Positions 3,535 through 27,167 of a DNA stretch of 44,073 bases are shown one piece after another; the first letter of the stretch is position 1; every line of letters starts with the position of its first letter. A program made the translations under genes and the position numbers. The notes below the pieces were generated by a model that had not been told where the DNA came from, did not search any database, and was given only the letters and a program-made list of their open reading frames with translations. The DNA comes from a virus, in the IMG/VR virus record IMGVR_UViG_3300033145_000258, positions 1 to 44,073 of that record; one strand, given 5' to 3'.

Positions 3535-3554
3535 TGTCCCTCCAAATTGTATGT

Positions 3555-3578
3555 GGGGTGGAGAGTCACCCCCACCCC
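3555..3578 (-). terminator. Intercistronic hairpin before radical SAM genes
   Basis: A perfect 7-bp stem, GGGGTGG pairing with CCACCCC around a 10-base loop, lies between the stop of the head protein gene and the ribosome site of the radical SAM gene. No T-run follows, so it may act as a partial terminator or an mRNA processing or stability element rather than a full stop. Confidence 0.45.
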
Positions 3579-3583
3579 TAAGT

Positions 3584-4228
3584 TTAACTTGCTGCCATAA
3601 GACCACATTCCTCAAGCCTGCCCTCAACCTCTAACACCCTGATCTGCAAATTATAAATTACCTGCAAAAAAGACTGCGCTTCGCCAAGGGTTACAAATCC
3701 AAAGCCTGTCGCTGTAACTAATGCCCCTACTGCATAATCCGCCGTAGATGCTGCCGTGCAGGTAATGGTCGTAAGTGCGGTTGTCAATGCTGCTGGTTGA
3801 TCTACGGGTGTAGTACCATAGAAGCCAACCAATTCTGTCGAAGCGTACCCAAGACAATGACCATCATCATTCCCATCGTCCAGATAATCATAAGTCTGAG
3901 CTACGCTCACCGCAGTCCCGCCATCTACAACTCCACAAGCCTCTAAAGCTGTGGCAATCTCACCTATCCGTGACTGAAGGTTTCCTATCACCCCAAGCAC
4001 GCTTGCCCCTTCCTGAGCAGTTGTAAATGCATACCCACTCTCTGCAACAAGAATAGCGATTGCATAATCAGCCGTTGCGTGGGCGGAAGCGGTGATGGTT
4101 GTTAAGTTTGCCGTAGTAACCGCAGCCTGGTCACACGGGGTCGTACCCCAAAAGCCTATCAGGTCGGTTGATGCATGACCGAATATGCTTCCGACATCGT
4201 CGTTCTTACTTAAATATTGTACTGCCAT
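3584..4228 (-). CDS. Two-repeat head or decoration-type protein
   Basis: The product is 214 residues made of two copies of a roughly 100-residue unit. Each copy has a GFWGTTP or GFYGTTP sequence near the N-terminal end, an ATADYA or STADYA segment, and a coiled tail ending in EACG or EECG. The adjacent gene at 4238-4549 encodes one copy of the same unit. The GFxGTTP motif is common in small phage proteins encoded beside the major coat protein and thought to be head fibre or decoration components. The exact role is inferred from position. A strong AGGAGGTTAAT ribosome site precedes the ATG. Confidence 0.75.
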   Translation of the reverse strand: MAVQYLSKNDDVGSIFGHASTDLIGFWGTTPCDQAAVTTANLTTITASAHATADYAIAILVAESGYAFTTAQEGASVLGVIGNLQSRIGEIATALEACGVVDGGTAVSVAQTYDYLDDGNDDGHCLGYASTELVGFYGTTPVDQPAALTTALTTITCTAASTADYAVGALVTATGFGFVTLGEAQSFLQVIYNLQIRVLEVEGRLEECGLMAAS

Positions 4229-9119: not shown

Positions 9120-11587
9120 GCGCCCATCCATGCTCCTGTTGCGTATGGTCTATTGTCCATCGGCAACGGATTAATTTGATATGCTTCGTATTTTGCTCCT
9201 ACTAACGTATATCTATAAGCGTTCTCACACATGTGATCGTTTTCTTTCGCCGGTTTACCGTTCTCGTCAAACACCCACCGTTGAACTTCGTAAAGAAACC
9301 TCTCGCAATCTTCAAAGATATAACAAGTCGGAAGTCCATTTACCCCTTTTAACCATGTCTGAAGATTCTTGACACCGCTGTCCTTGTCCTTTGAGGCAAC
9401 CTGAAGAGTAATGCCATGCGGTAAAAGCTTATCGCCTATGATTGAGAACGTGTCCCGCTGGTCTGTGCCAAGCCGATTTCGGATATACGCGACATCCCCC
9501 TTTGAAAGAGGATCGATAAATGCCTCTGTTATGTTCCAGCCTGCTTTTAATTTACGAATAATATCATCTGCAATTTCATCCCCTGAGATGTTCTTCCACG
9601 TTTCACCAACGCAATAATTAATGTCCTGCCGATTCACTGCCCAATACGAAACAGCCTGTGGGGTACTCAGGTGAAAATCAATCATAACCGTTACCGGCCA
9701 GTCTGTAGGTACGTCAAACCGCTTCACTACATGAATGTCCCTGTCAAACTCCTTCAGGACACGACCAACCAAGGATTTAAACATCCCAAACACCCTCGGA
9801 GGAACATCAGCAGGGTCAATATCTTTAATAAACTTCAAAATCTTTAGTTTGTAAATATCAGCATGAGCCATTACAGGGATTATGCCCTCTAAATACATTT
9901 CTGCGCCCCTGCCCTGATCGACTACAGGCTTGTTTTTCTCTTTATTCTCATACAACAGCAAATCAAAATACTTTTCTATCTGCGATTCGTCTAAGTGTTG
10001 GTTAAGAACAGCAACATCCCCGTTCACAAGGTCAGGATTATCGGTAATCTTTAAATTATCTACAATCCCTATGTCTTTTCTGCCGCTCAGCACAATATCA
10101 TCCAGTATCCATGCTTCCTTTATAGGGGTTAATGAGAGTAGCGTCTTGCCATTGTCAAGCAAAAGCCCACGACTCATGGCCTTATACTTTGCCTTGGGCG
10201 GCGGTTCATCCAATATAGCCCCCTGCGCCCTGAACGATTCAAATAAATCATCGTCCTGAGAGTATGACATTATTGTCAGGGTCGAAACATTGTCCCACTT
10301 TCCCGCCTGATCGCAAAACGTCCATAAAAAATCAACGCCCTGTTCGTTCTTTTTGGTCTTATACCACCCTTTAGGCGCCCACTTCTTTAACTCAGGAACA
10401 AGCGTCCTGCCAATGTGTAACTTCCAGTCTTCCCCAGTCAGAATTAAATTTACCGGCGGCTCAATCCCTAATGACGACTTCCGGTAATACTGCCCATGAA
10501 CTTCAATCGCTTCAGGATCGTCTTTATCAATGTAATCCCAAGGCTCAAAACCAATCAGCCAGGAAATTAAAATGTTCGTGACCAGACACGAATTATGATG
10601 GATTAACCCACCTGCAAAATAATTATGCCATTTATCCACCGTAAAATCATAAACTTCTTGACTTCCAAGTTTAATGGATGATATAATGTGGTTATTATCA
10701 ACCAACAAAGGAGAACAACATGAAGGCACAGTATCACGAGAATGAGGAGCGACTAAGGGATCTTGTTGAAAACCAGAAGATGCAACTCCACAAGGTAGCT
10801 GAAATCCTTGGGGTTCACTGGTCAACTGTAAACAACTGGTGCCGAAGGTTTGGGTTAAAAACTCAAAGAGTCGGCCCACGAACTGGCGTTGCCTGTAAAG
10901 GAGGTCGTTTTGTAGGGAAAGGAGGGTACGCTTATGTTTTTTTACCAGATCACCCAAACTGCAACAATAAGGGATATATGATCGAAAGCCGTGTGGTAAT
11001 GGAAAAAAAACTTGGTCGTCTTCTTGATAGGAAGGAAGTTGTCCACCACAAAAATCGCGATGTTTCTGATAATAGCCCGGGGAACCTTTCTCTTTTCCGT
11101 TCAAATGGAGCGCACCTTGCCCATGAATTGAAGGGGAAATGTCCGAACTGGACTGAGGATGGGAAGAAACGAATTTATGCAGGGATTCAAAAGAGCGCCA
11201 CCCTCCGTAAGTTAAAATCTTGTGATGATCAGCAGCATCAATTGTTTGACCGTCAGACATCGTAATCCTATAACACTTGTGAAGCCCATGTTTTTTAAAC
11301 GGAGCGTGGGCTTTCGCTATTACTTTTTTCTTTCCGTCCCATGCAAAAACATCAAACGGTTTTCCGATATCATGCAACCTGCCAACAGATACCTTTCCAT
11401 CGGGAGTGTCTATAAGTGTTTGATATGTAATGCATTTTCCTATCTTGTTGCTTGAGATAATCGCTGTTGTGTTTTTCTCCCGAATCTTTACTAAGGCGTC
11501 CTTCTGCCAGGGATAAGGCTTAAAAAAGAATATACCATTGTCCTTCTTAAACCTCTCAACCCTTTCTTCGGCAGTCTCTTTGCTCAT
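9116..11587 (-). CDS. Terminase large subunit interrupted by an intein
   Basis: The primary product is 823 residues. The mature packaging ATPase-nuclease would be 542 residues: residues 1-51 joined to 333-823. The Walker A motif SSNKIGKS is rebuilt only after removal of residues 52-332. The ATPase Walker B-like GAILDEPP follows, and the nuclease half shows VMIDFHLSTP and EAFIDP acidic residues. It powers DNA packaging and cuts the concatemer. The C-terminal end couples to portal by an ATGA overlap. Because the intein sits in the catalytic P-loop, packaging depends wholly on splicing. An antisense HNH gene occupies the centre of the intein. The ribosome site is modest (AAGTGAG). Confidence 0.93.
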   Translation of the reverse strand: MSKETAEERVERFKKDNGIFFFKPYPWQKDALVKIREKNTTAIISSNKIGKCITYQTLIDTPDGKVSVGRLHDIGKPFDVFAWDGKKKVIAKAHAPFKKHGLHKCYRITMSDGQTIDAADHHKILTYGGWRSFESLHKFVSSHPQSSSDISPSIHGQGALHLNGKEKGSPGYYQKHRDFCGGQLPSYQEDDQVFFPLPHGFRSYIPYCCSLGDLVKKHKRTLLSLQNDLLYRQRQFVGRLFEFLTQTFGTSCLQLTSEPQGFQLPCGVASSGFQQDPLVAPHSRDTVPSCCSPLLVDNNHIISSIKLGSQEVYDFTVDKWHNYFAGGLIHHNSCLVTNILISWLIGFEPWDYIDKDDPEAIEVHGQYYRKSSLGIEPPVNLILTGEDWKLHIGRTLVPELKKWAPKGWYKTKKNEQGVDFLWTFCDQAGKWDNVSTLTIMSYSQDDDLFESFRAQGAILDEPPPKAKYKAMSRGLLLDNGKTLLSLTPIKEAWILDDIVLSGRKDIGIVDNLKITDNPDLVNGDVAVLNQHLDESQIEKYFDLLLYENKEKNKPVVDQGRGAEMYLEGIIPVMAHADIYKLKILKFIKDIDPADVPPRVFGMFKSLVGRVLKEFDRDIHVVKRFDVPTDWPVTVMIDFHLSTPQAVSYWAVNRQDINYCVGETWKNISGDEIADDIIRKLKAGWNITEAFIDPLSKGDVAYIRNRLGTDQRDTFSIIGDKLLPHGITLQVASKDKDSGVKNLQTWLKGVNGLPTCYIFEDCERFLYEVQRWVFDENGKPAKENDHMCENAYRYTLVGAKYEAYQINPLPMDNRPYATGAWMGA
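10658..10687 (+). promoter_or_regulatory. Sigma-70 promoter for antisense HNH gene
   Basis: TTGACT at 10658-10663, an 18-base spacer and a perfect TATAAT at 10682-10687 lie 33 bases before the HNH start codon. On the opposite strand the same bases encode intein block F (around GSQEVYDF). The promoter would therefore be constrained by the splicing domain and would drive transcription against the terminase message. Confidence 0.75.
10720..11265 (+). CDS. HNH homing endonuclease encoded antisense inside the intein
   Basis: The product is 181 residues. An N-terminal helix-turn-helix (LHKVAEILGVHWSTVNNWCR, residues about 22-41) is followed by a classic HNH nuclease: GYMIESRVVMEKKLGRLL, then EVVHHKNRDVSDNSPGNLSL and a later HLAH. 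The ribosome site AAAGGAG is 7 bases before the ATG and a strong promoter lies upstream. The whole gene lies on the strand opposite the terminase intein. The last 20 or so codons overlap intein block B, and the start lies just before block F. A role in homing of the intein allele is expected from the family. Its orientation relative to the intein is very unusual. Confidence 0.92.
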   Translation: MKAQYHENEERLRDLVENQKMQLHKVAEILGVHWSTVNNWCRRFGLKTQRVGPRTGVACKGGRFVGKGGYAYVFLPDHPNCNNKGYMIESRVVMEKKLGRLLDRKEVVHHKNRDVSDNSPGNLSLFRSNGAHLAHELKGKCPNWTEDGKKRIYAGIQKSATLRKLKSCDDQQHQLFDRQTS

Positions 11588-11630
11588 ATCTCACTTAAAA
11601 CCCTGCTCATTCTTTCAAATCAATCACTCA

Positions 11631-11966
11631 TTATTGTATTTCATTATGCACAAGTACTTGATTGCCATTTTCGTGGTCTTCATATTCTAATTCTGGTTCA
11701 CACCAACAAAATTCTGTCAATATATGTTCTGGAATATACTCCTCTGGTTTTTTTATTTCAGAATAATGGGCATTAAAACTATCCCCTGGTTGGTGTAAAA
11801 GGTTGCCAAATTCATCTTCAATGTCTTGAACCGCAACAACCCCAAAATACTTATCCGTTTCATCTTCTGGCTCTGGTGGAATCCCCCATAAAACCAAGGA
11901 AGCAACTATCCCATCAATATCAATAATAACCTTGTCTCCAATTTTCCATTTACGCTTAATTGGCAT
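11631..11966 (-). CDS. Hypothetical protein with C-terminal CWC...H motif
   Basis: The product is 111 residues. An N-terminal small beta domain (WKIGDKVIIDIDGIVASLV) looks like a KOW/SH3-type barrel, followed by a segment GDSFNAHYSEIKKPEEYIP and a C-terminal FCWCEPELEYE...QVLVHN stretch. The C-x-C plus late His pattern is frequent in small phage proteins of unknown function. It sits just upstream of the terminase in the packaging operon and overlaps the coiled-coil gene before it by 11 bases. I do not recognise a function. Confidence 0.65.
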   Translation of the reverse strand: MPIKRKWKIGDKVIIDIDGIVASLVLWGIPPEPEDETDKYFGVVAVQDIEDEFGNLLHQPGDSFNAHYSEIKKPEEYIPEHILTEFCWCEPELEYEDHENGNQVLVHNEIQ

Positions 11967-12192
11967 GCCTGAGTTCGCCCTTAATCTCCTTTAAATCCCT
12001 CTCAACTTTCGGTATCCGCTTGAATAATTCCTTGACATTGTCAACAGCCAAATCAACCTTCTCGCCCATAGCTTTGTTAAAATCTTCACGAAATAAGGCT
12101 ATCTCATGCAGGGTGCTGTTAATGGCAGTCTCGGTTAACCCCTGCCTATACTCTAAATCCAATACCCTCTCATTTAATGTCTTGTCTGCCAT
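11956..12192 (-). CDS. Small coiled-coil protein
   Basis: The product is 78 residues, almost wholly helical with heptad-like spacing (NERVLDLEYRQGLTETAIN, then VKELFKRIPKVERDLKEIKG). There is no membrane segment and no enzyme motif. It lies in the minus-strand operon between an antitoxin-like gene (1-base gap) and the gene at 11631-11966 (overlap). It may be an assembly partner or adaptor, but nothing in the sequence decides this. Confidence 0.6.
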   Translation of the reverse strand: MADKTLNERVLDLEYRQGLTETAINSTLHEIALFREDFNKAMGEKVDLAVDNVKELFKRIPKVERDLKEIKGELRHAN

Positions 12193-12193
12193 T

Positions 12194-12457
12194 TTACCCC
12201 TTCGGCGCTAATTTCGTGTTCGATAATGGGTTTGTCCACTCTTGTCTCCCGCCCGTGTGAGAAGTTGTCTTTTCCTCATTATTACAAGAACTTGACTTTG
12301 GAGCTTCGTGTACACAATCATCAGCAGGGGCTACTTCATAGTCCTCTTGTGTACACATTATACCCAAAATAACACCATTCTTCGTGATCTCAAACGGTAA
12401 ATTCTGTAATTGTGTACTCAATGTCGCTCTCAATTCTCGTATGTTTACTTGACGCAT
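12194..12457 (-). CDS. Phd/YefM-like antitoxin-type protein
   Basis: The product is 87 residues. The N-terminal 45 residues (MRQVNIRELRATLSTQLQNL, then FEITKNGVILGIMCTQEDY) follow the Phd/YefM antitoxin fold: an N-terminal strand, a helix with ELR, then ITKNGxxxGI. The C-terminal half is disordered and polar (SSSCNNEEKTTSHTGG), where toxin-binding regions usually lie. No toxin gene is adjacent. I use the internal ATG at 12457 because the fold begins there. The upstream GTG at 12505 would add 16 unrelated residues. The ribosome site is weak at either start. It may repress its own operon. Confidence 0.6.
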   Translation of the reverse strand: MRQVNIRELRATLSTQLQNLPFEITKNGVILGIMCTQEDYEVAPADDCVHEAPKSSSCNNEEKTTSHTGGRQEWTNPLSNTKLAPKG

Positions 12458-12738
12458 CTTTTTATTTTTCGGAAATTTAATGGGGGATGTAATACATACA
12501 TACACCCCTCAGGATTGACCTTGCCCCCGGCCTTCATATACACACCAGTACCACGGCACACACACCGTACAGGGTGGCTGATAGGCTAAAGAAAATTATG
12601 GGTATATAGTATCTCATTTATGTATGATATGACCCTGTTTATAGTAATTAAGTTAGCTGTTATCAGGTACTTACCTCAAAAGTTTACATAATATATCTTA
12701 TCGGACGTCCACGGCTGGTAAGGGTTTACAGCCATGTA
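12458..12738. other. Stretch without a clear gene
   Basis: About 280 bases between the HTH/small-terminase gene and the antitoxin-like gene. On the minus strand there is one 30-codon frame starting at 12537 that overlaps the antitoxin start region, but it has no convincing ribosome site. The segment around 12600-12690 is AT-rich with several TATA-like runs. I could not pair a good -35 and -10. Confidence 0.4.
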
Positions 12739-13137
12739 TCAGGCTACCTCCTTGAGTTTAGCTATATCTGTATGGACTGTAGCGATGTTTGCAGTTGACT
12801 TGTCCCGCTCCAAACGCTCCTTGTCATACAGTATCCCACTGGCTGTAACCCGTTGAAGTAATGAGGCCTTTTTGATATCAGCCTCTGTTATGGTATTAAG
12901 TATCTTTGATTGCAATAATGCAAACAAGTCCCCTCTATTTGCCTTGTAGTTACTTAGGCTTGTTATTCCTGTACGTTGTAGTCGTTGGGTGATATTGGAG
13001 TGTGTGCAGCCGGTTATTTTTGCTATTTGGTCGTGTGATAGCTCTTTGCTATGGAGTTCGAGTATTACTTCGATGGGTATTTTCTTGTGCCATTTGGTTG
13101 GTTTGGGCAGGTCTTTGTCGGCTGGTATGAGTTTCAT
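12739..13137 (-). CDS. HTH protein, likely terminase small subunit
   Basis: The product is 132 residues. A helix-turn-helix (SHDQIAKITGCTHSNITQRL, residues about 34-53) is followed by a helical region (LFALLQSKILNTITEADIKK) and a C-terminal ASGILYDKERLERDKST segment. The last pattern is common in phage DNA-binding proteins encoded upstream of the large terminase. Recognising the packaging site is the expected role of a small terminase; I infer it from the HTH and gene order. It overlaps the upstream gene by 4 bases (ATGA), so it is translated by coupling. Confidence 0.65.
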   Translation of the reverse strand: MKLIPADKDLPKPTKWHKKIPIEVILELHSKELSHDQIAKITGCTHSNITQRLQRTGITSLSNYKANRGDLFALLQSKILNTITEADIKKASLLQRVTASGILYDKERLERDKSTANIATVHTDIAKLKEVA

Positions 13138-13367
13138 AGTGCTATACTCAGGTTATCAGTTAGTCGGGTTATGGTGTTATCATCGGGTAGCTCAGTTATT
13201 TCTTCGATGGTGTCCATAAACTCTGATATCGCCCTTGCACACTTTACTTGCTGTGTTTTGGGGCCTTCCAGCTGTATCCATCTTGCCTGGAAGTCTATAC
13301 CAACTAAGCGGCTGTTATGGTTAGTTGCTATCAGGTTAACGCACTGAATGAACTCATGCTCAGTCAT
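13134..13367 (-). CDS. Hypothetical protein
   Basis: The product is 77 residues with a helical N-terminus (MTEHEFIQCVNLIATNHN), a short strand region (RLVGIDFQARWIQLEGP) and an acidic helical end. No known motif. It overlaps both neighbours by 4 bases as ATGA junctions, which supports its being a real gene in the leading part of the minus-strand operon. Confidence 0.6.
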   Translation of the reverse strand: MTEHEFIQCVNLIATNHNSRLVGIDFQARWIQLEGPKTQQVKCARAISEFMDTIEEITELPDDNTITRLTDNLSIAL

Positions 13368-13582
13368 ACTGTAGCCCGCTGATTACTGTGCGCTTGTAGC
13401 GGCTTAATATATTGGGGGAGGCAGTATTGGCAGCATATTGGTTTCATGTCCCTTGCTTCTCTCCAGTATGTCTCAGTACCGCATATCACACAGGGAGCAG
13501 GTTGGCTTGACTTAACTATAACGTGCCTTCCAACTTGCCTCCTGGTTAGTGGGCTGTCATCCGGGAATAGTCTATCAAACAT
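13364..13582 (-). CDS. Small zinc-ribbon-like protein, first gene of late operon
   Basis: The product is 72 residues with CVIC and CCQYC cysteine pairs about 25 residues apart, a likely zinc-binding pair. The N-terminus LFPDDSPLTRRQVGRHVIV has no known motif. It has an AAGAGG ribosome site and is the first gene after the candidate minus-strand promoter at 13607-13635. The function is unknown; small zinc proteins at this position often act as regulators, but there is no direct evidence. Confidence 0.6.
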   Translation of the reverse strand: MFDRLFPDDSPLTRRQVGRHVIVKSSQPAPCVICGTETYWREARDMKPICCQYCLPQYIKPLQAHSNQRATV

Positions 13583-13606
13583 AATACCTCTTGGTGGTTA
13601 TTCTAT

Positions 13607-13635
13607 ACCATATACCCAGATATAGTGCTTGTCAA
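13607..13635 (-). promoter_or_regulatory. Candidate minus-strand promoter
   Basis: On the minus strand there is a perfect TTGACA (13635-13630), a 17-base spacer and TATGGT (13612-13607), 25 bases before the first gene of the operon. The palindrome at 13645-13658 lies 10 bases upstream of the -35, a natural place for regulator binding. Confidence 0.65.
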
Positions 13636-13644
13636 GCTTTATTT

Positions 13645-13658
13645 TAGGAAAAATCCTA
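13645..13658. promoter_or_regulatory. Operator-like palindrome 1
   Basis: TAGGAAAAATCCTA has 5-base arms around AAAA. It shares the core TAGGxAAAAxCCTA with the palindrome at 13721-13738, so the two look like sites for one dimeric regulator. The regulator is not identified. Confidence 0.5.
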
Positions 13659-13720
13659 CACCTTAACGATTTGTAATTGTTGGATATTTGTGCAGGTGTA
13701 TGAAAAACCCACATAGTAAT

Positions 13721-13738
13721 TGTAGGGAAAACCCTACA
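13721..13738. promoter_or_regulatory. Operator-like palindrome 2
   Basis: TGTAGGGAAAACCCTACA has perfect 7-base arms around AAAA. Its centre lies about 78 bases from that of palindrome 1, with matched arm changes (GGA/TCC versus GGG/CCC) that preserve symmetry. Confidence 0.5.
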
Positions 13739-13894
13739 AATTAGATTATTTGTAAATCTGGTTATTTCGCTGAAAATTATTATTTGTTGTTATTTGTGAT
13801 ACTTACGAAATATTTGATTTGTTGGCATCTAACTTGCTTTGCTCTAAAAGCAGAAAACAAATTTAACTTTAACCAACAGCAGGGAGGGAGAAAC

Positions 13895-14140
13895 ATGACA
13901 ACATGCGATATAGCAATGACAGCGCAACAGGTAATTGACAGTTTTACAAGCCAAAAAATTAGTTTCCTGGGGCATATTGTAAATAAGTACAACTATCAGC
14001 GGGAAATCCGTGCGGAACTTTGCAAACTGGCCGAAGATGGACAAATCACTCCAAGGACTTACTTGGCGGCATTAAGGTTAACATGGGCCGTAATGGACAA
14101 ACATGACAAGGCAACTGAGCTTGAAATTCTGCAACCGTAA
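13895..14140 (+). CDS. Hypothetical protein
   Basis: The product is 81 residues, mainly helical (AQQVIDSFTSQKISFLGHIV, then REIRAELCKLAEDGQITPRT). The frame is open upstream, but the ATG at 13895 has an AGGGAGGGAG ribosome site, so I start there. It is the first gene of a four-gene plus-strand operon of small proteins following the control region. No family is recognised. Confidence 0.6.
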   Translation: MTTCDIAMTAQQVIDSFTSQKISFLGHIVNKYNYQREIRAELCKLAEDGQITPRTYLAALRLTWAVMDKHDKATELEILQP

Positions 14141-14185
14141 AGAATATTCTAAGTATTAATCTTAAACAATGGAGGGTTGAAAACA

Positions 14186-14629
14186 ATGAAACAACTGGTA
14201 ATTTATAAGCTTGGTGAAACAAATATCCAGACCACAATTGATAAAAATGGCTATGCTGATTTCACAGACGGGAAGTTAGCTGAAGCATATCTTGATAAAC
14301 TTGGGCATGGTTATGCAATCATGCCTTTTGACCAAGCCCTTGACTTGATAACCAAAGCTGAAAATGAAAAATATTTAGATAAACCCTGGAAAGAAATTGA
14401 TGAAGATATGTGGGAGAAATGGTTGAGCGTGCTACCGCCTGAAAAATGGCAAACAGTTGAAGGCGTTGAGATTTTCCGACTGGCTGAATATTTAATCAGT
14501 AATATTACAATGCATTGTGCAAAATATAATAATAGATACTTTCAATCGAACAGGAGAACTGTTGAGCCGTGCGAGTTTATGGCCGCTCAAATTAAAATCA
14601 TATGTAACCAGGGAGGATTGAAATGCTAA
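14186..14629 (+). CDS. Hypothetical protein
   Basis: The product is 147 residues. The sequence around residues 65-110 (KPWKEIDEDMWEKWLSVLPP, then EIFRLAEYLISNITMHC) resembles a region in many uncharacterised phage and plasmid proteins with a W-x-x-x-L-x-x-LPP core, but I cannot name a family with confidence. A GGAGGG ribosome site lies 9 bases before the ATG at 14186; the earlier in-frame TTG at 14177 touches that site and is less likely. The gene overlaps the next by 7 bases. Confidence 0.6.
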   Translation: MKQLVIYKLGETNIQTTIDKNGYADFTDGKLAEAYLDKLGHGYAIMPFDQALDLITKAENEKYLDKPWKEIDEDMWEKWLSVLPPEKWQTVEGVEIFRLAEYLISNITMHCAKYNNRYFQSNRRTVEPCEFMAAQIKIICNQGGLKC

Positions 14630-14847
14630 TAGTAGAGGCAAAATCAGTTGAGGACTATCTTGACAGGTATTATAAAAAAAGCAGATACACCTTATGTGGC
14701 AAAGAATATGCAGGGGAATTATTAGCATCGTACCAAAAAGAATATGCCCAAAGAGGCTATGTGTGTACCAGCCACCACGATAATGTAACAGGCGAGATGA
14801 TTGCATGGCCACATTATCCAAAAAATAAACAGGGAGGATTAAAATGA
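14623..14847 (+). CDS. Hypothetical protein
   Basis: The product is 74 residues, basic and Tyr-rich (SVEDYLDRYYKKSRYTLCGK, then YQKEYAQRGYVCTSHHDN). No known motif is seen. It overlaps the upstream gene by 7 bases and the downstream gene by 4 (ATGA), and its message carries a GGGAGG site inside the upstream gene. Tight packing supports a real gene of unknown function. Confidence 0.6.
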   Translation: MLIVEAKSVEDYLDRYYKKSRYTLCGKEYAGELLASYQKEYAQRGYVCTSHHDNVTGEMIAWPHYPKNKQGGLK

Positions 14848-15029
14848 TCGAAAAAATCGAATGGAAAAGTCCGGAACCCGCAAGCTTCCCTTGCTTTGTT
14901 TGCGAGGTCGGGGAAGCGACATTCCGGCGCACCATTGACATGGGTGGCTGCCGTTTACTGGCCTGCCTGTGCAATAAGTGCGTGATGATGGGCGAGGTAG
15001 AGTTAGTTGCATTTTTTGAAACAGATTAA
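14844..15029 (+). CDS. Small zinc-ribbon-like protein
   Basis: The product is 61 residues with CFVC and CLCNKC cysteine groups about 25 residues apart, suggesting a small zinc-binding fold. It starts by ATGA overlap and has an upstream GGGAGG site. It is the last gene of the small plus-strand operon; a GC-rich stem-loop follows within 10 bases. The function is unknown. Confidence 0.6.
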   Translation: MIEKIEWKSPEPASFPCFVCEVGEATFRRTIDMGGCRLLACLCNKCVMMGEVELVAFFETD

Positions 15030-15034
15030 CCAAA

Positions 15035-15068
15035 GGGGAGGCTCCTATCGCTTCAGTTGGGCCTCCCC
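15035..15068. terminator. Bidirectional stem-loop between convergent genes
   Basis: A perfect 8-bp stem, GGGGAGGC with GCCTCCCC around an 18-base loop, lies where the plus-strand small-protein operon meets the minus-strand replication operon. The T-run is poor in both directions, so termination may be partial. Confidence 0.55.
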
Positions 15069-15197
15069 ATCAAACTCCCTGTCCAGCCGCTTTGCTTCTT
15101 CCCTTCTGCGCTTTTCCGCCTTTGATCTCAGCCAGTTAGCAATAGTTTTAAACTTCTTGCGCTTTTGCTTTCGGGTTATGCGTGGGTTGCGTTTCAT
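15045..15197 (-). CDS. Small very basic protein
   Basis: The product is 50 residues, strongly basic, beginning MKRNPRITRKQKRKKF and continuing with alternating K/R and E helix (AEKRRREEAKRLDREF). Its ATG overlaps the stop of the RecU-like gene as ATGA, so it is coupled to it. It may bind nucleic acid, judging by charge alone. The terminal stem-loop overlaps its last codons. Confidence 0.6.
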   Translation of the reverse strand: MKRNPRITRKQKRKKFKTIANWLRSKAEKRRREEAKRLDREFDGEAQLKR

Positions 15198-15625
15198 TGT
15201 TTTTTGCCCTTCAAATAACTAAAACTAAATGCGGCGTTCTCAATCGCCATTTCCTCTGTGAATGACTTTCTGCTGGCATTTTGCTCCATTTCAAGAAATG
15301 CCCTGATAAAAATATAATATACTTGTTTCTTTTTGCGTGGAACGTAAAACATAACAACTATATACGCTTCTTTATGCTTTAAGAAAAAACAGTCAAACGG
15401 TTTCGGCTTTGTGAATCTCATGCGTCCTTTTGGATCTTTGAAAAACGGCGAGTCTGCTATTTTATGGTAAAGTCCGGTTCCTGAACTCACGTCCAATAGA
15501 GCTTGCTTTTGATGGGCGGCTACTGCGGAAAATGATAGGCTTTTACCCTTACAAATTTTTAGCTCAAATATACCGCTGATTTTATTATGCTTCTTGAATT
15601 CTGACTGAAACTGTGCTTCACGCAT
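15194..15625 (-). CDS. RecU-like PD-(D/E)XK nuclease (Holliday junction resolvase candidate)
   Basis: The product is 143 residues. The core FELKICKGKSLSFSAVAAHQ matches the RecU-type pattern of an acidic-x-Lys catalytic pair followed by an HQ helix, and a later KPFDCFFL strand and IVVMFYVP core strand fit the restriction-endonuclease fold. Such nucleases resolve recombination or replication junctions before packaging. An upstream start at 15679 would add 18 residues; the ATG at 15625 has a GGAG site 10 bases before and leaves a 14-base gap to the previous gene. RecU itself is longer, so this is a compact relative; distant HJR-type nucleases are an alternative. Confidence 0.65.
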   Translation of the reverse strand: MREAQFQSEFKKHNKISGIFELKICKGKSLSFSAVAAHQKQALLDVSSGTGLYHKIADSPFFKDPKGRMRFTKPKPFDCFFLKHKEAYIVVMFYVPRKKKQVYYIFIRAFLEMEQNASRKSFTEEMAIENAAFSFSYLKGKKQ

Positions 15626-15639
15626 AAGAATATTCTCCG

Positions 15640-15936
15640 CTACCACGTCCCCCGATCTGCATACTGCTCTAATTCCCACGTAGTTAATTTGTGCCGAATC
15701 CGTATGCGCTTTTCCTGCCAGTCGATGACCAAATCATAACCGTTTAGCTCAGGATATAGATCCCTCACGGCACGCCACATGTCCTTTTCGTTCCGCTCCA
15801 GGTTTGCGCCCAAATGTGCAATCATTGCGCTTATTCCAGAGCGTTTTCTGTGATACGTCAGCAGCGTTTCGATCTCCTTGTCCGCCATCTGTATCGTTTC
15901 GCCTGTCATTTTTTCGTTCTGTTTTTGATCGTCCAT
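15640..15936 (-). CDS. Hypothetical protein
   Basis: The product is 98 residues, with an acidic-polar N-terminus then helices (EIETLLTYHRKRSGISAMIA, then LERNEKDMWRAVRDLYPEL). No known motif is seen. The ATG at 15936 has an AAAGGAG site 8 bases before it; the GTG at 15945 touches that site. It lies between the primase and the RecU-like nuclease, so a replication or recombination accessory role is possible. Confidence 0.6.
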   Translation of the reverse strand: MDDQKQNEKMTGETIQMADKEIETLLTYHRKRSGISAMIAHLGANLERNEKDMWRAVRDLYPELNGYDLVIDWQEKRIRIRHKLTTWELEQYADRGTW

Positions 15937-15954
15937 TTTTATCACTCCTTTCAG

Positions 15955-16875
15955 CTATAATATATCGTTAAAATCGTCCCCCGAACAACCTGGAATTTTG
16001 ACTTCAACGATATACTCTTTGTTATAGAGTTTGTTTGCCAAAACATACGCACTTTTAGCCCCCGCATAGTTCGCATCATTATCAGCCATAATTACAATGT
16101 GCCGTACACCATCAGGCGGTTCAAACCCCTCTAATATCGTACTTGATACACAAGCCCACACTGGCATATCAAACATTTGACTGCATGAAATAGCTGTTTC
16201 GATTCCCTCTGCTATCCCAAGTTTCTCGCCTTTTATCTCAAATAACCTTATCGCACACCCCGACAACAGCTCTAATGCCGGTGTTAGTTTCTTAGGGCTT
16301 GGCACGTCTGCTTTTTGCGGCTTGTCCCTGTCTAAGTAGGTTCTATGCAGAGCAACCGGGACCCCCTTGGAATTAAAAACCTTGGCTACCATTGCAGGAT
16401 GATTCTGTTTGGTGTCTGATTCGTAGCACTCAGGACAATATCTCACGTTATCGGGTTGTAAGACCAATTTTCGTGAGTGCAGGTACTTTGAAACAGGGTC
16501 ACTACCTGAAAGCGGGATCGATCCTGTCCAGATTTTATTCAGCATGGCTTTAATTTTTGAGTTATCCATTTGGTTATTTTGTACTTTGTCCATTTTGCAC
16601 CCACCCCCAAGAGCTTCGTTAATACGGCTTAATGCTTCCTTAAAATTAATTCCAAGGTGTTTCATTATCAACTGGAACGCTGTTCCGGCCCCGCACTGAC
16701 CGCAGATGTAAGTTCCGCTTCCGTCCTTATTGTCCCACCGCCAACGGTCTTCTCCAGAGCAAAATAAACACGGCCCGTGCTTGCCGGTTAAATACGATTC
16801 CGGCACACCAAGGCTTGTAAGTATCCCATACCACCTACCCCTTGCCTGTGCTTCAAGGTCATCTACTCTTATCAT
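15955..16875 (-). CDS. Primase-like zinc-ribbon/Toprim protein
   Basis: The product is 306 residues. An N-terminal zinc ribbon has CLFC and CGQC pairs (residues about 36-62), typical of P4 alpha-type/DnaG-like primases. The C-terminal Toprim-like domain has GIAEGIETAISC with the catalytic Glu and a later VIMADND acidic motif. A middle region also has CPEC. It should make RNA primers for the phage fork, working with the helicase in the same operon. There is no helicase domain in this protein. A hydrophilic joining region lies near residues 90-110. Confidence 0.85.
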   Translation of the reverse strand: MIRVDDLEAQARGRWYGILTSLGVPESYLTGKHGPCLFCSGEDRWRWDNKDGSGTYICGQCGAGTAFQLIMKHLGINFKEALSRINEALGGGCKMDKVQNNQMDNSKIKAMLNKIWTGSIPLSGSDPVSKYLHSRKLVLQPDNVRYCPECYESDTKQNHPAMVAKVFNSKGVPVALHRTYLDRDKPQKADVPSPKKLTPALELLSGCAIRLFEIKGEKLGIAEGIETAISCSQMFDMPVWACVSSTILEGFEPPDGVRHIVIMADNDANYAGAKSAYVLANKLYNKEYIVEVKIPGCSGDDFNDIL

Positions 16876-21556: not shown

Positions 21557-21730
21557 TTATTTTAGCAGCACCTTAATTAACTTCCTTAAATGATCGCTTG
21601 GAACTTTCTCGCCGTTTTCAAGATGCCGAACGTATCTGGCAGTTATGCCTAATTCAGAAGCAACTTTTTCATAACCACCAAATTTCCTCAATAGTCGTTT
21701 TATTAATGTTATTACTGTTTTAGTTCTCAT
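21557..21730 (-). CDS. XRE-type helix-turn-helix repressor-like protein
   Basis: The product is 57 residues, with a compact helix-turn-helix (YEKVASELGITARYVRHLEN) filling most of the chain. It is divergent from the plus-strand recombination operon, like a phage switch regulator. The ATG at 21730 has no ribosome site. A TTGACA lies 32 bases upstream, with TGTTAT as a possible -10 just before the start, so a leaderless message is possible as for lambda cI. An in-frame GTG at 21760 would place the start within that promoter. Confidence 0.7.
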   Translation of the reverse strand: MRTKTVITLIKRLLRKFGGYEKVASELGITARYVRHLENGEKVPSDHLRKLIKVLLK

Positions 21731-21738
21731 GGTGAACT

Positions 21739-21767
21739 GGATAACATGAACCAATATCACATGTCAA
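21739..21767 (-). promoter_or_regulatory. Candidate promoter for HTH gene
   Basis: On the minus strand there is a perfect TTGACA (21767-21762); the best -10 options are TGTTAT (spacer 15) or TTATCC (spacer 17), both just before the ATG. The words GTGAACT at 21732 and 21811 could be regulator half-sites. Confidence 0.4.
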
Positions 21768-21832: not shown

Positions 21833-21860
21833 TTGACTTTTGTTTTTTGGGTGCTATGGT
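21833..21860 (+). promoter_or_regulatory. Plus-strand promoter driving first cassette and recombination operon
   Basis: TTGACT at 21833-21838, a 16-base spacer and TATGGT at 21855-21860 with a TG two bases before it (extended -10). Transcription would start about 21867, immediately before the attI-like element and the single cassette, in the position of an integron Pc promoter. Confidence 0.6.
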
Positions 21861-21871
21861 CTATTTAAAAT

Positions 21872-21903
21872 GCAGAATTATTCTGCGTATGACATAGTTA
21901 GCT
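21872..21903. mobile_element. attI-like insertion element 1
   Basis: A 15-base palindrome GCAGAATTATTCTGC is followed by GTATGAC-ATA-GTTAGCT, two inverted core boxes three bases apart as in attI1. The element recurs at 25486-25517 with compensatory changes in the palindrome. It marks the left end of the single cassette insertion. Confidence 0.6.
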
Positions 21904-22161
21904 CTGCGAAGGACAAAATCATGAAAAAAGAAGATATTTTAGATGAGCAGCATTGGAAATTTGCAGATTATCGTCAAAGGATAATATTAAAACAATGGCA
22001 ATCGCTACTTCTTAACGATGATGATAAAGTTATATTCCAAGGACGTGTAACTCAACTTATGGGAAAATCCCTCGGGAGTGGTATTGTGGAAGTATCAAAG
22101 CAACTGAGCTAACCAGCCGCTTGACTCCGATGACAAAAACCGCCACGGCTCAGCTAAATCG
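21898..22161 (+). mobile_element. Single integron-type gene cassette (array 1)
   Basis: The segment runs from the TT of the GTT in attI-like element 1 to the G of the attC R' box at 22161. It holds one small gene (21921-22112) oriented toward its attC, as in integron cassettes. It lies directly behind a promoter. Confidence 0.65.
21921..22112 (+). CDS. Cassette-encoded small protein
   Basis: The product is 63 residues, mainly helix then strand (DILDEQHWKFADYRQRIILK, then VIFQGRVTQLMGKSLGSGIV). No known family is recognised. The frame is open upstream; the ATG at 21921 has an AAGGA site 8 bases before and removes residues encoded by the attI-like element. Its stop overlaps the R'' box of the following attC. 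It is the first gene after the plus-strand promoter. Confidence 0.6.
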   Translation: MKKEDILDEQHWKFADYRQRIILKQWQSLLLNDDDKVIFQGRVTQLMGKSLGSGIVEVSKQLS

Positions 22162-22167
22162 TTATGC
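22107..22167 (+). other. attC-like site A
   Basis: R'' is AGCTAAC and R' GTTATGC, with 8-base spacers on both sides. The L arms TGACTCCGATG and CACGGCTCA pair with two extra bases on the left arm and one mismatch. The right half GGCTCAGCTAAATCGTTATGC-like sequence is shared with the attC sites at 26286-26387 and 26856-26937. Confidence 0.6.
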
Positions 22168-24129: not shown

Positions 24130-24885
24130 ATGACAAATATTGAAAAGTTTGACGAAAGGCATAAGACAGAAAACTTACCGACCCCGGCTAATGACTCCCC
24201 GGCGGCTTTAATGCAAATGGCCATGTCAAAAGGGCTGGACTTGGACAAATTAGAGAAAATGCTTGAGTTGCAAGTTAAGTGGGAGGAAAGAGAAAGTAAG
24301 AAAGCCTATTTTTTGGCAATGGCTGATTTCAGGCAGCAGCCCTTGGAAATTCTGAAAGATCGAAAGGTATCATTCCAAACATCAAAAGGTAAAACCGAAT
24401 ACGATCACGCCAGCCTCGCAAATGTAGTAAATGTTATTGGAGCTGAATTAGGCAGTCACGGATTATCTGCTGCGTGGAAAACAGACCAGGGCAATTCCGG
24501 GATAAAAGTCACATGCGTATTGTCCCATCGTAATGGCCATAGCGAAGAAGTCTCTTTAACAGCACCGCCAGATTTGAGTGGTAGTAAAAACCCGATACAA
24601 GCCATAGCCTCAACCGTCAGCTATTTGGAAAGATACACATTGCTGGCTATCACGGGACTAAGCACTAAGGATATGGATAATGACGCAAATCCTATTGAGC
24701 CTGAAGCTAAAATCAACGATCAGCAATTAGCAGACATTACAACCCTTCAAAAAGACGCAAAACTTTCTGACAAGGAATTTGTCAAACGCCTTAAAAATAA
24801 GTTCAAAGTAGAAAAGGCTGAAGACCTCACAGAAACACAGGCCGAAGAATTAATCAAGGCTTTGGATGCTATAAAGAATGCTTGA
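24130..24885 (+). CDS. erf: ERF-family single-strand annealing protein
   Basis: The product is 251 residues. The ERF domain (residues about 50-175) shows KAYFLAMADFRQQPLEILKD, then YDHASLANVVNVIGAEL and SYLERYTLLAITGLSTKD. ERF proteins anneal complementary single strands for recombination and genome circularisation. The C-terminal region (residues about 200-251) is a charged helical tail. It overlaps the start region of the YqaJ gene; exonuclease and annealase normally act as a pair. Confidence 0.92.
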   Translation: MTNIEKFDERHKTENLPTPANDSPAALMQMAMSKGLDLDKLEKMLELQVKWEERESKKAYFLAMADFRQQPLEILKDRKVSFQTSKGKTEYDHASLANVVNVIGAELGSHGLSAAWKTDQGNSGIKVTCVLSHRNGHSEEVSLTAPPDLSGSKNPIQAIASTVSYLERYTLLAITGLSTKDMDNDANPIEPEAKINDQQLADITTLQKDAKLSDKEFVKRLKNKFKVEKAEDLTETQAEELIKALDAIKNA

Positions 24886-24911
24886 CAATAATAGATATAA
24901 AAAGGAATAGC

Positions 24912-25511
24912 ATGGTAACAATTTATACACATAGACAACAAAGCCCCGAGTGGTTTCATGCGAGACTTGGGTTAATCAGCGCAAGCTCTTTCTCTAAGGT
25001 TATGGCGAAAGGTGCTGGCAAGGTTCGTAAAGACTATATGTTAAAACTTGCGGCTGAAATTATTACCGGAACCCACAGAGACACATATCAAAACGCAGAT
25101 ATGATTAGAGGTAATGAACAAGAACCTCAAGCAAGAGCCGAATATGAGTTTATTACAGGGTGTTCAGTAGATCAGATAGGCTTCGCCAAGCGTGGAAGAA
25201 TATCATGCAGCCCTGACGGTCTGGTGAAGTCTGAAGGCGGTATAGAAATTAAGTCTGTAATCCCCGAAGTCCAGATTGAAACAGTTATTGCGGACAGAAT
25301 ACCGCCATCACACAAACCTCAAGTCCAAGGCTGTATGATGGTCTTAGATTGCGAGTGGTGGGATTTTGTTTCATACTCACCTTTAATAAAAAACAAAAAC
25401 TTTATGTTTATCAAACGAATGTATCGAGATAATGAATATATTGCTACGCTTGAATCTGAGATTGTTAAATTCATTGCGGACTTAGACAGAATAATTCTGT
25501 GTATGACTTAG
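24912..25511 (+). CDS. YqaJ-like recombination exonuclease
   Basis: The product is 199 residues. SPEWFHARLGLISASSFSKV, then MIRGNEQEPQARAEYEFITG, and GIEIKSVIPE (the Glu-x-Lys of the PD-(D/E)XK core) are typical of YqaJ exonucleases, which resect ends for the annealing protein. The TTG at 24882 would overlap ERF; the ATG at 24912 has an AAAAGGAAT site and begins the conserved domain. Its final codons (the LCMT end) lie inside attI-like element 2, and the TAG stop supplies the crossover G. Confidence 0.9.
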   Translation: MVTIYTHRQQSPEWFHARLGLISASSFSKVMAKGAGKVRKDYMLKLAAEIITGTHRDTYQNADMIRGNEQEPQARAEYEFITGCSVDQIGFAKRGRISCSPDGLVKSEGGIEIKSVIPEVQIETVIADRIPPSHKPQVQGCMMVLDCEWWDFVSYSPLIKNKNFMFIKRMYRDNEYIATLESEIVKFIADLDRIILCMT

Positions 25512-25517
25512 TTATAC
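25486..25517. mobile_element. attI-like insertion element 2
   Basis: A 15-base palindrome ACAGAATAATTCTGT is followed by GTATGAC-TTA-GTTATAC, inverted boxes three bases apart. Nineteen of 21 bases match element 1 from ATTCTG to GTTA, and the outer palindrome pair changes from G-C to A-T. It starts the multi-cassette array. Confidence 0.65.
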
Positions 25518-25527
25518 AGCTTAGAAG

Positions 25528-25746
25528 ATGAGACGAAAACCTGAAATTATAATCTGTCCTGCTGGGTGTGGATATATAAGAGCAAACCGTAAGCAAAAAC
25601 GATGTTGCGGATGCAAAACAAAGCTTTTTTATGTAAATGATTTTATAAATCCAAACGATGAGGATGATCTGAATGGGTTTATATGGCTTAGTCCCAGATG
25701 GGTCAATGTAAGGGAATGGTTAAACAAAAACGATATCGCTATATAA
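25528..25746 (+). CDS. Cassette-encoded zinc-ribbon-like protein
   Basis: The product is 72 residues with CPAGC and CCGCK cysteine groups about 17 residues apart, then a FINPNDEDDLNGFIWLSPRW segment. It is the first gene of array 2. The stop codon overlaps the R'' box of the following attC site. The ribosome site is weak (TTAGAAG). The function is unknown. Confidence 0.6.
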   Translation: MRRKPEIIICPAGCGYIRANRKQKRCCGCKTKLFYVNDFINPNDEDDLNGFIWLSPRWVNVREWLNKNDIAI

Positions 25747-25800
25747 CCACCGGATGTAGCCGACACAAAACGCCGTGCGGCTAATCCTATTTCGTTAGGA
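25741..25800 (+). other. attC-like site 1
   Basis: R'' is ATATAAC and R' GTTAGGA, 60 bases in all. The hairpin GGAT(G)TAGCCG(A)CAC pairs with GTG-CGGCTA-ATCC, a perfect stem with two extrahelical bases, both on the left arm, as is typical of attC. The R' box extends into the ribosome site of the next gene. Confidence 0.75.
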
Positions 25801-25812
25801 GGCTTATTTATT

Positions 25813-26064
25813 ATGCAATTATGGGATGCTTTTTTAGAAGATTATAAGGATGAGATATTTGATTGGTCACCAAGGCAATTATTAGAAATCTTCTGGCATT
25901 ATTGTCAGGATGGCAGTAAGGCTGTTTATGAGTTTTTAAACAAAGACGCCGTCCTAACCAACGCCATGCACTCGGACGGGGAGAAAGAAGCTGTTTATTG
26001 TGGAGGTTGCGGATTCATACATCAACCAGGGGAATGCCCAGATGGTATGGAAGGCCGCCGGTGA
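25813..26064 (+). CDS. Cassette-encoded hypothetical protein
   Basis: The product is 83 residues. The N-terminus is a helical Trp-rich part (LWDAFLEDYKDEIFDWSPRQ); the C-terminus has CGGCGFIHQPGEC, a possible zinc site. The ribosome site TTAGGAGG comes directly from the attC R' box and its flank. Its stop is followed by a hairpin and a GTTATAT that may be a decayed attC. Confidence 0.55.
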   Translation: MQLWDAFLEDYKDEIFDWSPRQLLEIFWHYCQDGSKAVYEFLNKDAVLTNAMHSDGEKEAVYCGGCGFIHQPGECPDGMEGRR

Positions 26065-26079
26065 TGGCGGATGTTATAT
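26055..26079 (+). other. Possible decayed attC-like site
   Basis: CCGCC pairs with GGCGG around GGTGAT, followed by GTTATAT, resembling the right half of a cassette site. A matching R'' box is not clear, so the next gene may belong to the same cassette instead. Confidence 0.3.
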
Positions 26080-26100
26080 TTCTTTTAGGAGAATGACAAA

Positions 26101-26289
26101 ATGAGTATAAGATATCGTTGTTTCTTTTGTGGATATTTATTCTGTTGTGGTTTACGGATGTTTCAGCAAGATATGATAGGCTTAGATAAATATCTTAATT
26201 TTGTTACAGCCGGATGGGTTTTTATTTCGCCTTGGTGGGGTATCGGAGTTATGATTTTGGCTATTATTGGTTGTGCGAAAACGAAATAG
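26101..26289 (+). CDS. Cassette-encoded small membrane protein
   Basis: The product is 62 residues. The start RYRCFFCGYLFCCGLRMF is Cys-rich and the C-terminal half (GWVFISPWWGIGVMILAIIG) is a likely membrane helix. A TAGGAG site precedes the ATG. Its stop lies in the R'' box of the attC-like site at 26286. The function is unknown; small membrane proteins are common cassette cargo. Confidence 0.6.
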   Translation: MSIRYRCFFCGYLFCCGLRMFQQDMIGLDKYLNFVTAGWVFISPWWGIGVMILAIIGCAKTK

Positions 26290-26387
26290 AACAAACCACT
26301 TGAGCTAACGGGAGAAGGCCGTGCGACTTCGGATAGGCCGAAATAGCTTGTCTGCTTTACCACCGTAACTCAGTTCAACCGTTATGC
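26286..26387 (+). other. attC-like site 3
   Basis: 102 bases. The R'' AAC is followed after 8 bases by TGAGCTAACGG, which pairs with CCGTAACTCA; 8 bases later comes R' GTTATGC. One extra base and one mismatch lie in the arm. The sequence is very close to the site at 26601. Confidence 0.7.
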
Positions 26388-26403
26388 TTGGGAGTAATAA
26401 ACA

Positions 26404-26661
26404 ATGGTCGAACTACCGAAAAATCCAACAAAAGAAACTCTATTGATTCTCGCGAACATAGGGGTTGATGTTAATAAAATAGTGCATATTGCAAGAGAAG
26501 AGCAACAAAAACTTGGGTTTGAAGTTATTCCCCCTAACTTTGAAATGGAACAAGCTGCCACAGCTTATCGTAGGCTATATGATTGTTTAACTAAAAATCA
26601 GCATAACAAACCACTTGAGCCAACGGGAGAAGGCAGTGCGATTTCGGAAAGGCCGGAGTAG
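26404..26661 (+). CDS. Cassette-encoded hypothetical protein
   Basis: The product is 85 residues. Helical (TKETLLILANIGVDVNKIVH, then FEMEQAATAYRRLYDCL). The last 17 or so residues (NKPLEPTGEGSAISERPE) are encoded by the left half of the attC site, so the natural chain has been extended by read-through. A GGGAG site precedes the ATG. No family is recognised. Confidence 0.6.
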   Translation: MVELPKNPTKETLLILANIGVDVNKIVHIAREEQQKLGFEVIPPNFEMEQAATAYRRLYDCLTKNQHNKPLEPTGEGSAISERPE

Positions 26662-26701
26662 CGCATAGGCCGAACGCCGTAGCTCAGTTTAGGCGTTAGG
26701 T
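26601..26701 (+). other. attC-like site 4
   Basis: 101 bases. R'' is GCATAAC and R' GTTAGGT, the latter a perfect GTTRRRY. The arms TGAGCCAACGG and CCGTAGCTCA pair with one extra A and one mismatch; spacers are 8 bases on both sides. The left half is nearly identical to site 3. Confidence 0.75.
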
Positions 26702-26706
26702 GACTT

Positions 26707-26913
26707 ATGGGAAAATATTTAGAAATCGGATTTTGCGATAGTTGTTATAACCACCGTTTGTGTGGTGGTCATAATTATTGCGAATTGGCTAAAGAAAGAA
26801 TTGATAGTTTGGGTCAAATTGTTTTAATCCCTGATTGGTGCCCTTTACCAGACGCACCTAACCCAGCACTGGAGCCGACCAACACTACCGAGCCGTCACA
26901 AAATATCGAGTAG
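26707..26913 (+). CDS. Cassette-encoded Cys-rich protein
   Basis: The product is 68 residues. CDSCYNHRLCGGHNYC and a later IPDWCPLP suggest a small metal-binding protein. The ending NPALEPTNTTEPSQNIE is partly encoded by the attC site. Its ribosome site is the AGGTG of the preceding R' box. The pattern with CPLP near the C-terminus is common in small proteins of unknown function. Confidence 0.6.
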   Translation: MGKYLEIGFCDSCYNHRLCGGHNYCELAKERIDSLGQIVLIPDWCPLPDAPNPALEPTNTTEPSQNIE

Positions 26914-26937
26914 GGCGGCTCAGTTCAAACGTTATAT
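26856..26937 (+). other. attC-like site 5
   Basis: 82 bases. R'' is ACCTAAC, a perfect RYYYAAC, and R' is GTTATAT. The stem CTG(G)AGCCG(A)CC pairs with GG-CGGCT-CAG: ten base pairs with two extrahelical bases on the left arm. Confidence 0.75.
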
Positions 26938-26941
26938 GCTT

Positions 26942-27127
26942 ATGTTTAAAAGATATTTAAAAATAAAAGTTTGGTGTATCTGGCATCTAAGAGCCCTTAA
27001 ACTTTTGCCTAATGTTTGGTATCGCTGTGAGATTGTACTTGCAGAGATTAGGGCTAAAGAACTACTATCTGTGTTTGACAAATACACACACAACCACCGG
27101 ATTCACTCGGACACTACGTGCCGGTGA
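26942..27127 (+). CDS. Cassette-encoded hypothetical protein
   Basis: The product is 61 residues, basic and Trp-rich (RYLKIKVWCIWHLRALKLLP, then EIVLAEIRAKELLSVFDKY). An earlier ATG at 26936 lies inside the R' box. There is no good ribosome site before either start. The C-terminal HNHRIHSDTTCR is encoded by the attC. A short amphipathic or membrane-edge helix is possible. The function is unknown. Confidence 0.45.
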   Translation: MFKRYLKIKVWCIWHLRALKLLPNVWYRCEIVLAEIRAKELLSVFDKYTHNHRIHSDTTCR

Positions 27128-27142
27128 TCCTAATCGTTAGGT
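27088..27142 (+). other. attC-like site 6
   Basis: 55 bases. R'' is ACACAAC and R' GTTAGGT. The hairpin GGAT(T)CAC(T)CGG(A)CAC pairs with GTG-CCG-GTG-ATCC around a TAC loop: thirteen base pairs with three single extrahelical bases, all on the left arm. It is the last site of the array. Confidence 0.8.
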
Positions 27143-27167
27143 GACTTATGGATAAAAGGAAAAGCCA

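Follow-up and report, generated by a model that had tools for sequence, protein, structure and literature searches.

How did a row of small genes, each followed by an attC-like site, come to lie in the recombination operon of a phage, and are these genes integron cassettes? To answer this we analysed the whole of the IMG/VR record IMGVR_UViG_3300033145_000258, a stretch of 44,073 bp (hereafter the window). The record carries seven integron gene cassettes in total at two places, six in a row and a lone one. We consider it very probable that they represent an integrase-less cassette array (CALIN) and a lone SALIN-like cassette in a complete podovirus genome, loaded by the IntI of a host.

Cassette arrays in phages are not new as such. 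Qi et al. 2023 (PMC9892861) described 17 CALINs in phages, virulent ones included, and IntI1 recombined five of the six phage attC sites tested; no later work on phage cassette arrays was found in the literature searched. The suggestion of the initial annotation that such an array would be a new route for cassette spread is therefore not supported. The present phage is an unusually clear case, and what it adds is a junction motif that recurs, along with an array position, at an exonuclease stop codon, that recurs as well.

Results

The phage genome

The window has direct terminal repeats of 114 bp, and the genome is therefore taken as complete. Its gene set comprises a P22-type portal, a scaffold, a coat protein, an internal virion protein, a primase, a helicase, NinB, ERF and a YqaJ exonuclease, and given the P22-type portal and coat genes the earlier label of podovirus is a reasonable one. 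No DNA similarity of the window to known phages was detected, an Rfam scan of the phage sequence returned nothing, and no phage integrase was found among the ORFs tested. No TIGR02249 (intI) match occurs anywhere in the 44,073-bp record, which thus does not hold a complete integron.

The ERF single-strand annealing protein is encoded at 24130-24885 (+ strand; Pfam ERF, 1e-13; phrog_155, 2e-37), followed by the YqaJ-type exonuclease at 24882-25511 (+ strand; Pfam YqaJ, 5e-20), whose stop codon TAG gives the G of the first recombination point. A Cro/CI-type helix-turn-helix protein (21557-21760, - strand; Pfam HTH_3, 23.4 bits for a cut-off of 23) is divergent from the early operon. Elsewhere in the genome, the large terminase (9116-11587, - strand) is interrupted at its Walker A motif (GK|CITYQ...HHN|SC) by an intein-like insertion some 280 aa long, which is missing in the relative G007 described below, and a radical SAM domain protein (2626-3627, - strand; phrog_21308, 1e-14) is encoded near the structural genes.

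Structure of the attC sites

We used a custom attC scanner that looks for AAC...GTT and a stem in which bulges are permitted on the L'' arm only. Between 25486 and 27142 it found six sites, each 3' of one small + strand ORF; the initial annotation had reported attC-like sites in a row here, and the array stands, with a count of six and not five. They are, all on the + strand, site 1 at 25741-25800 (scanner score 18.1), site 2 at 25952-26079 (21.3), which has a long variable loop, site 3 at 26286-26387, site 4 at 26601-26701, site 5 at 26856-26937, and site 6, the final one of the array, at 27088-27142. Their scores range from 14.4 to 21.3, the next best in the region being 9.6, while class 1 and Vibrio control sites score 20-22 and 14-17, respectively. 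When the region was dinucleotide-shuffled 1,000 times, 975 shuffles had no + strand site scoring at least 14.4, 25 had one and none had two, and on this result chance was set aside as the origin of the sites. A CALIN consists of at least two attC sites close together with no nearby intI; here six lie within 1.4 kb (six by the scanner, five by model R2, see below) in a record without a TIGR02249 match.

The AAC/GTT cores at the site ends, which the initial annotation had pointed out, are invariant in all sites, and the consensus RYYYAAC/GTTRRRY is fitted in 5-7 of its 8 degenerate positions. The claim that unpaired bases occur on one arm only is borne out in all six sites: the extrahelical bases are on the L'' arm in each, and the stem scores are 13-20 in the stated orientation versus 6-10 in the opposite one. 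Furthermore, all six sites have a top-strand A (bottom-strand T) as their second bulge, as in the class 1 attC controls, and in alignments the second extrahelical base has the class 1 spacing in most of the six. Minimum free energy folding of the single-stranded DNA was dropped as proof of attC, since the energies are unremarkable (z between -2.1 and 0), and for sites 3 and 0 the method does not yield the canonical structure.

Two covariance models were built. Model R1, trained only on 18 published sites (P1-borne class 1, Shewanella, Vibrio and TJE1), retrieved three window sites, namely site 4 (E=5e-5), site 5 (E=0.014) and site 6 (E=0.098), and nothing else with E<1. Model R2, trained on 40 sites with the window and window-like sites excluded, retrieved five of the six array sites as well as a seventh attC site, site 0 (22107-22167, + strand), which ends the lone cassette; E-values ranged from 9e-6 to 0.055. 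Individual R2 results were 24.3 bits for site 0 (E=0.0054 over the whole window), 19.4 bits for site 1, 26.3 bits for site 3, and E=9e-6, 7e-5 and 5e-4 for sites 4, 5 and 6. Site 2 is missed by both models. Because the R2 training set came partly from contigs fetched by a window-derived pattern, R1 is the cleaner test. The scores of these models, which are our own, exceed those of shuffled sequence and controls, the outcome opposite to that which the initial annotation had named as refuting the array.

Circular origin of the cassettes

The best test of the cassettes is their circularity. In a cassette circle the R'' box pairs with the R' box from the start of its own cassette, whereas in the linear array it lies opposite the start of the following cassette. 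Beyond the GTT, R'' of the seven cassettes matches its own start in 33 of 42 positions, as against 17 of 42 for the R' faced in the array, and only 6 of 181,440 permuted assignments are equally good (P=3.3e-5). For the six array cassettes alone the counts are 28/36 and 15/36 (P=8e-4). Site 6 matches its own start in 3/6 positions, no better than its neighbour's, while the start of cassette 1 matches its own R'' in 5/6. Since the test is symmetric, it gives no orientation, which is supplied by the bulges. This agreement is explained by site-specific recombination of circles and not by ordinary hairpins.

Cassette genes

The start of the lone cassette 0 (21898-22161, + strand, 264 bp), GTTAGCTC, complements the cassette's R'' box, GAGCTAAC, exactly; the ORF of this cassette (21921-22112, + strand, 63 aa) has its stop codon within the R'' box and belongs to no family. 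The array cassettes, all on the + strand, are cassette 1 at 25512-25794 (ORF 25528-25746, 72 aa, Cys-rich), cassette 2 at 25795-26073 (ORF 25813-26064, 83 aa), cassette 3 at 26074-26381 (ORF 26101-26289, 62 aa), cassette 4 at 26382-26695 (ORF 26404-26661, 85 aa), whose attC encodes the C-terminus of the protein, cassette 5 at 26696-26931 (ORF 26707-26913, 68 aa, Cys-rich, with an IPDWCPLP motif) and cassette 6 at 26932-27136 (ORF 26936-27127, 63 aa). The C-terminal half of the cassette 3 product is hydrophobic, making it a probable membrane protein.

The cassette proteins are orphans, with both of the types mentioned in the initial annotation, small Cys-rich and membrane-type proteins, among them. 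Searches of Pfam, PHROGs and PADLOC gave nothing convincing for the cassette ORFs, and tblastn found no match in phages or in the viral scan. A distant homologue of the cassette 5 protein (33%, E=3e-4) adjoins the array of the phage contig L013. After the last R' box, positions 27135-27156 have 20 of 22 nt in common with the start of cassette 5 (26694-26715), and possibly represent the remnant of a further array cassette that lost its attC. The idea that the cassette 5 start is a leader shared by many cassettes in the phylum of the bacterial genome G023 (see below) was rejected after no match was found in 395 genomes.

A shared motif at both insertion points

Both insertion points share a 28-bp motif, CAGAATWATTCTGYGTATGACWTAG|TTA, whose two copies are identical in 25 of 28 positions, and the likeness does not extend past the G|TT crossover; each of the two junctions is spanned by the 28 bases CAGAATWATTCTGYGTATGACWTAGTTA. 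Copy A, CAGAATTATTCTGCGTATGACATAG|TTA, is located at 21873-21900 (+ strand) with the crossover after the G at 21897, and copy B, CAGAATAATTCTGTGTATGACTTAG|TTA, at 25487-25514 (+ strand) with the crossover after the G at 25511. No identity of this extent between the copies is expected in shuffles (0 expected). Cassette 0 starts after ACATAG and cassette 1 at the base following the exonuclease stop TAG, so that the two junctions precede different first cassettes. No further copy was found in the window, in 1.1 Mb of other loci, or in the portion of the G023 integron examined.

An attI is a site directly 5' of the first cassette with a G|TT crossover, and both copies have this position and crossover. 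A typical attI also adjoins an intI gene, whereas this record contains none. Upstream of copy A are the divergent Cro/CI-like gene and a sigma-70-like promoter, TTGACT-16-TATGGT (21833-21860, + strand), which is a consensus match only, of a kind whose frequency here is not above chance. The motif holds a 15-bp palindrome, CAGAATWATTCTG (21872-21886 and 25486-25500), with an outer pair that is G:C in copy A and A:T in copy B; such covariation is as expected of an operator or a hairpin. At copy B, the closest exonuclease homologue, in contig L001, ends at the same codon and differs in sequence there. Candidate readings of the motif are an attI-like target, a target of the attG kind that was used on two occasions, a palindrome with a regulatory role and a duplicated end of the exonuclease gene.

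Arrays in relatives and other phages

A complete relative, G007 (40,111 bp with terminal repeats; TerL 67%, portal 61%), is syntenic through the exonuclease and then has other small ORFs, with no attC and no cassette gene. Likewise, L001 (exonuclease 68%) shows no attC structure and no cassette gene. The genes are therefore not a fixed backbone kept without attC in these two related phages, the second finding that the initial annotation had named as fatal to its reading.

An exact 22-base attC pattern found no match in viral contigs, a looser gapped pattern retrieved two, and the exonuclease profile offered no usable conserved stretch. Among about 50 phage contigs scanned, only these two carry arrays, and both pass the array test applied to the window. 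L013 (IMGVR_UViG_3300033145_000483), which has terminase, portal and coat genes, contains an array at 10849-12426 with four forward cassettes and sites; one cassette encodes a C5 DNA (cytosine) methylase, and one site is 85% identical to site 4 of the window. G002 (IMGVR_UViG_3300044529_000018, 52.7 kb; also handled as L014 and L049) has 13 attC sites at 11935-16645. Its array lies directly 3' of an ERF-YqaJ pair and starts exactly at the exonuclease stop codon, and its circularity is 56/60, with 0 of 200,000 permutations as good. All its sites point against the direction of the ORFs, which have their start codons inside the attC loops. Few G002 proteins match PHROGs, so that the contig is taken as viral from its inclusion in IMG/VR and from a few replication genes. 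In MW202573 (L002:2069-2703), a coat-protein relative, the attC sites also run against the ORFs, and reversed cassettes may be a recurrent phage arrangement.

Similar attC sites in a bacterial integron

Comparison with bacterial integrons, proposed in the initial annotation, identified the metagenome-assembled genome G023 (Deltaproteobacteria, JAJSZT01), whose attC sites are 79-81% identical to sites 3 and 4 over 96-100 nt, variable loop included (79% over 100 nt for site 3). The G023 array adjoins a divergent, truncated intI start, for which the matches are fragments below the family cut-off. The portal gene of the phage is absent from G023, which therefore provides no host link; bacterial genomes of this kind were rejected as phage host and kept only as holders of similar attC sites.

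Discussion

The reading of the initial annotation, in which integron cassettes form an array within the recombination operon of a podovirus, is upheld by circularity, covariance models, bulge asymmetry, absence from G007 and the match to bacterial attC sites. The cassettes are of circular origin with precise G|TT junctions, in a phage without integrase of its own, and they are sporadic among its relatives.

We infer that, during infection, an integron-bearing host would supply IntI in trans, and that this enzyme would recombine cassette circles, by way of their folded bottom strand, with a G|TT target on double-stranded phage DNA. The first insertions would take place at the 28-bp junction motif, acting as an attI- or attG-like site, in its copy on the exonuclease stop codon and in its copy where the early operon begins. 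Later insertions would use the resident attC sites, so that the array could grow and be shuffled; the cassettes would be read by phage early transcription, and the phage might carry them to hosts with integrons able to take them up.

Alternatively, illegitimate or ERF-mediated recombination could have pasted in the whole array from a bacterial integron, without any action of IntI on phage DNA. Indeed, the ERF and exonuclease genes adjoin the array, such routes have been suggested for phage CALINs (Qi et al., PMC9892861), and the right end is untidy, with its sequence after R' resembling the start of cassette 5 in 20/22 nt. This origin is nevertheless weakened, and we regard it as unlikely, because the array starts on its left exactly at the R' point of cassette 1 (5/6 with its own R''), which coincides with the exonuclease stop codon, and because a second locus has the same 28-bp left flank with a different cassette; the G002 array too begins at an exonuclease stop codon. 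An assembly chimera of phage and bacterial DNA is very improbable: the contig is metagenomic and its joins are judged from the assembly alone, yet terminal repeats close the genome around the array, phage genes flank it on both sides, and two separate insertions have one common junction. Still less credit is given to the reading of the hairpins as ordinary intergenic signals, such as terminators or RNA-processing stems, between small native genes. G007 also has small ORFs 3' of its exonuclease and the folding energies are ordinary, but this reading is already largely refuted by circularity (P=3e-5), blind attC models, bulge asymmetry and identity to bacterial attC sites through the variable loop; moreover, the region holds no more terminator-like sites than chance would give.

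The nature of the 28-bp motif is a closer matter. That it is a phage operator, a leader hairpin or a duplicated exonuclease end, with cassettes 3' of it by happenstance, has only slightly less than an even chance in our judgement: it contains the palindrome with a covarying outer pair, copy A has a promoter-like site on one side and the operon on the other, with the Cro/CI-like gene close by, and copy B encodes the C-terminus of an exonuclease whose end codon is as in L001. Against happenstance, the cassettes start at the same motif base in both copies, and neither the window nor 1.1 Mb of other loci holds a cassette-free copy. The shared junction suggests that cassettes are loaded by a host integrase with a preference for one docking sequence. 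The novelty lies in the repetition of this sequence, for which an attI-like role may be envisaged; that the phage owns such an attI-like sequence twice, once where the early operon begins and once where its recombination genes end, is a tentative and rather doubtful proposal. If true, the IntI of any integron-bearing host would load cassettes into phage-transcribed positions, and the host integron would be a gene-supply system for the phage.

Known systems offer several comparisons. The CALINs of the virulent phages TJE1, PH101 and P12002L, and that of MW202573 (PMC9892861), are likewise attC arrays without intI, with small ORFs and attC of several types, and the coat protein of MW202573 is of the type present here (40% identity). 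Unlike those, the present phage has seven cassettes at two loci with a common 28-bp junction, at the stop codon of the exonuclease, and its sites follow the ORF direction, whereas those of MW202573 run against it. Two arrays in one phage are also found in the Shewanella prophage M16-3 (integron and CALIN; Qi et al. 2023, PMC9892861), where each is preceded by a related attI, to which the two junctions here may be likened; however, M16-3 is a cryptic prophage with intI, which our phage does not have. IntI is also reported to insert cassettes at bacterial sites that are neither attI nor attC, termed attG (Loot et al. 2024, as cited in PMC12444791 and PMC12901181); such insertions are described there as broadly distributed, whereas here one motif is used twice. 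Finally, the chromosomal integron of G023 resembles the phage in its attC and differs in being on a bacterial contig, with larger cassettes and an intI remnant beside the array.

With its clean junctions, its recurring insertion motif and the parallel arrays that other phages carry, this genome makes the route of cassette gain directly testable, the routes to tell apart being host IntI acting at a preferred target and copying of a whole array. Integrons store antiphage genes, according to papers cited in PMC12444791. Cassette-carrying phages would tap and spread this same integron pool.
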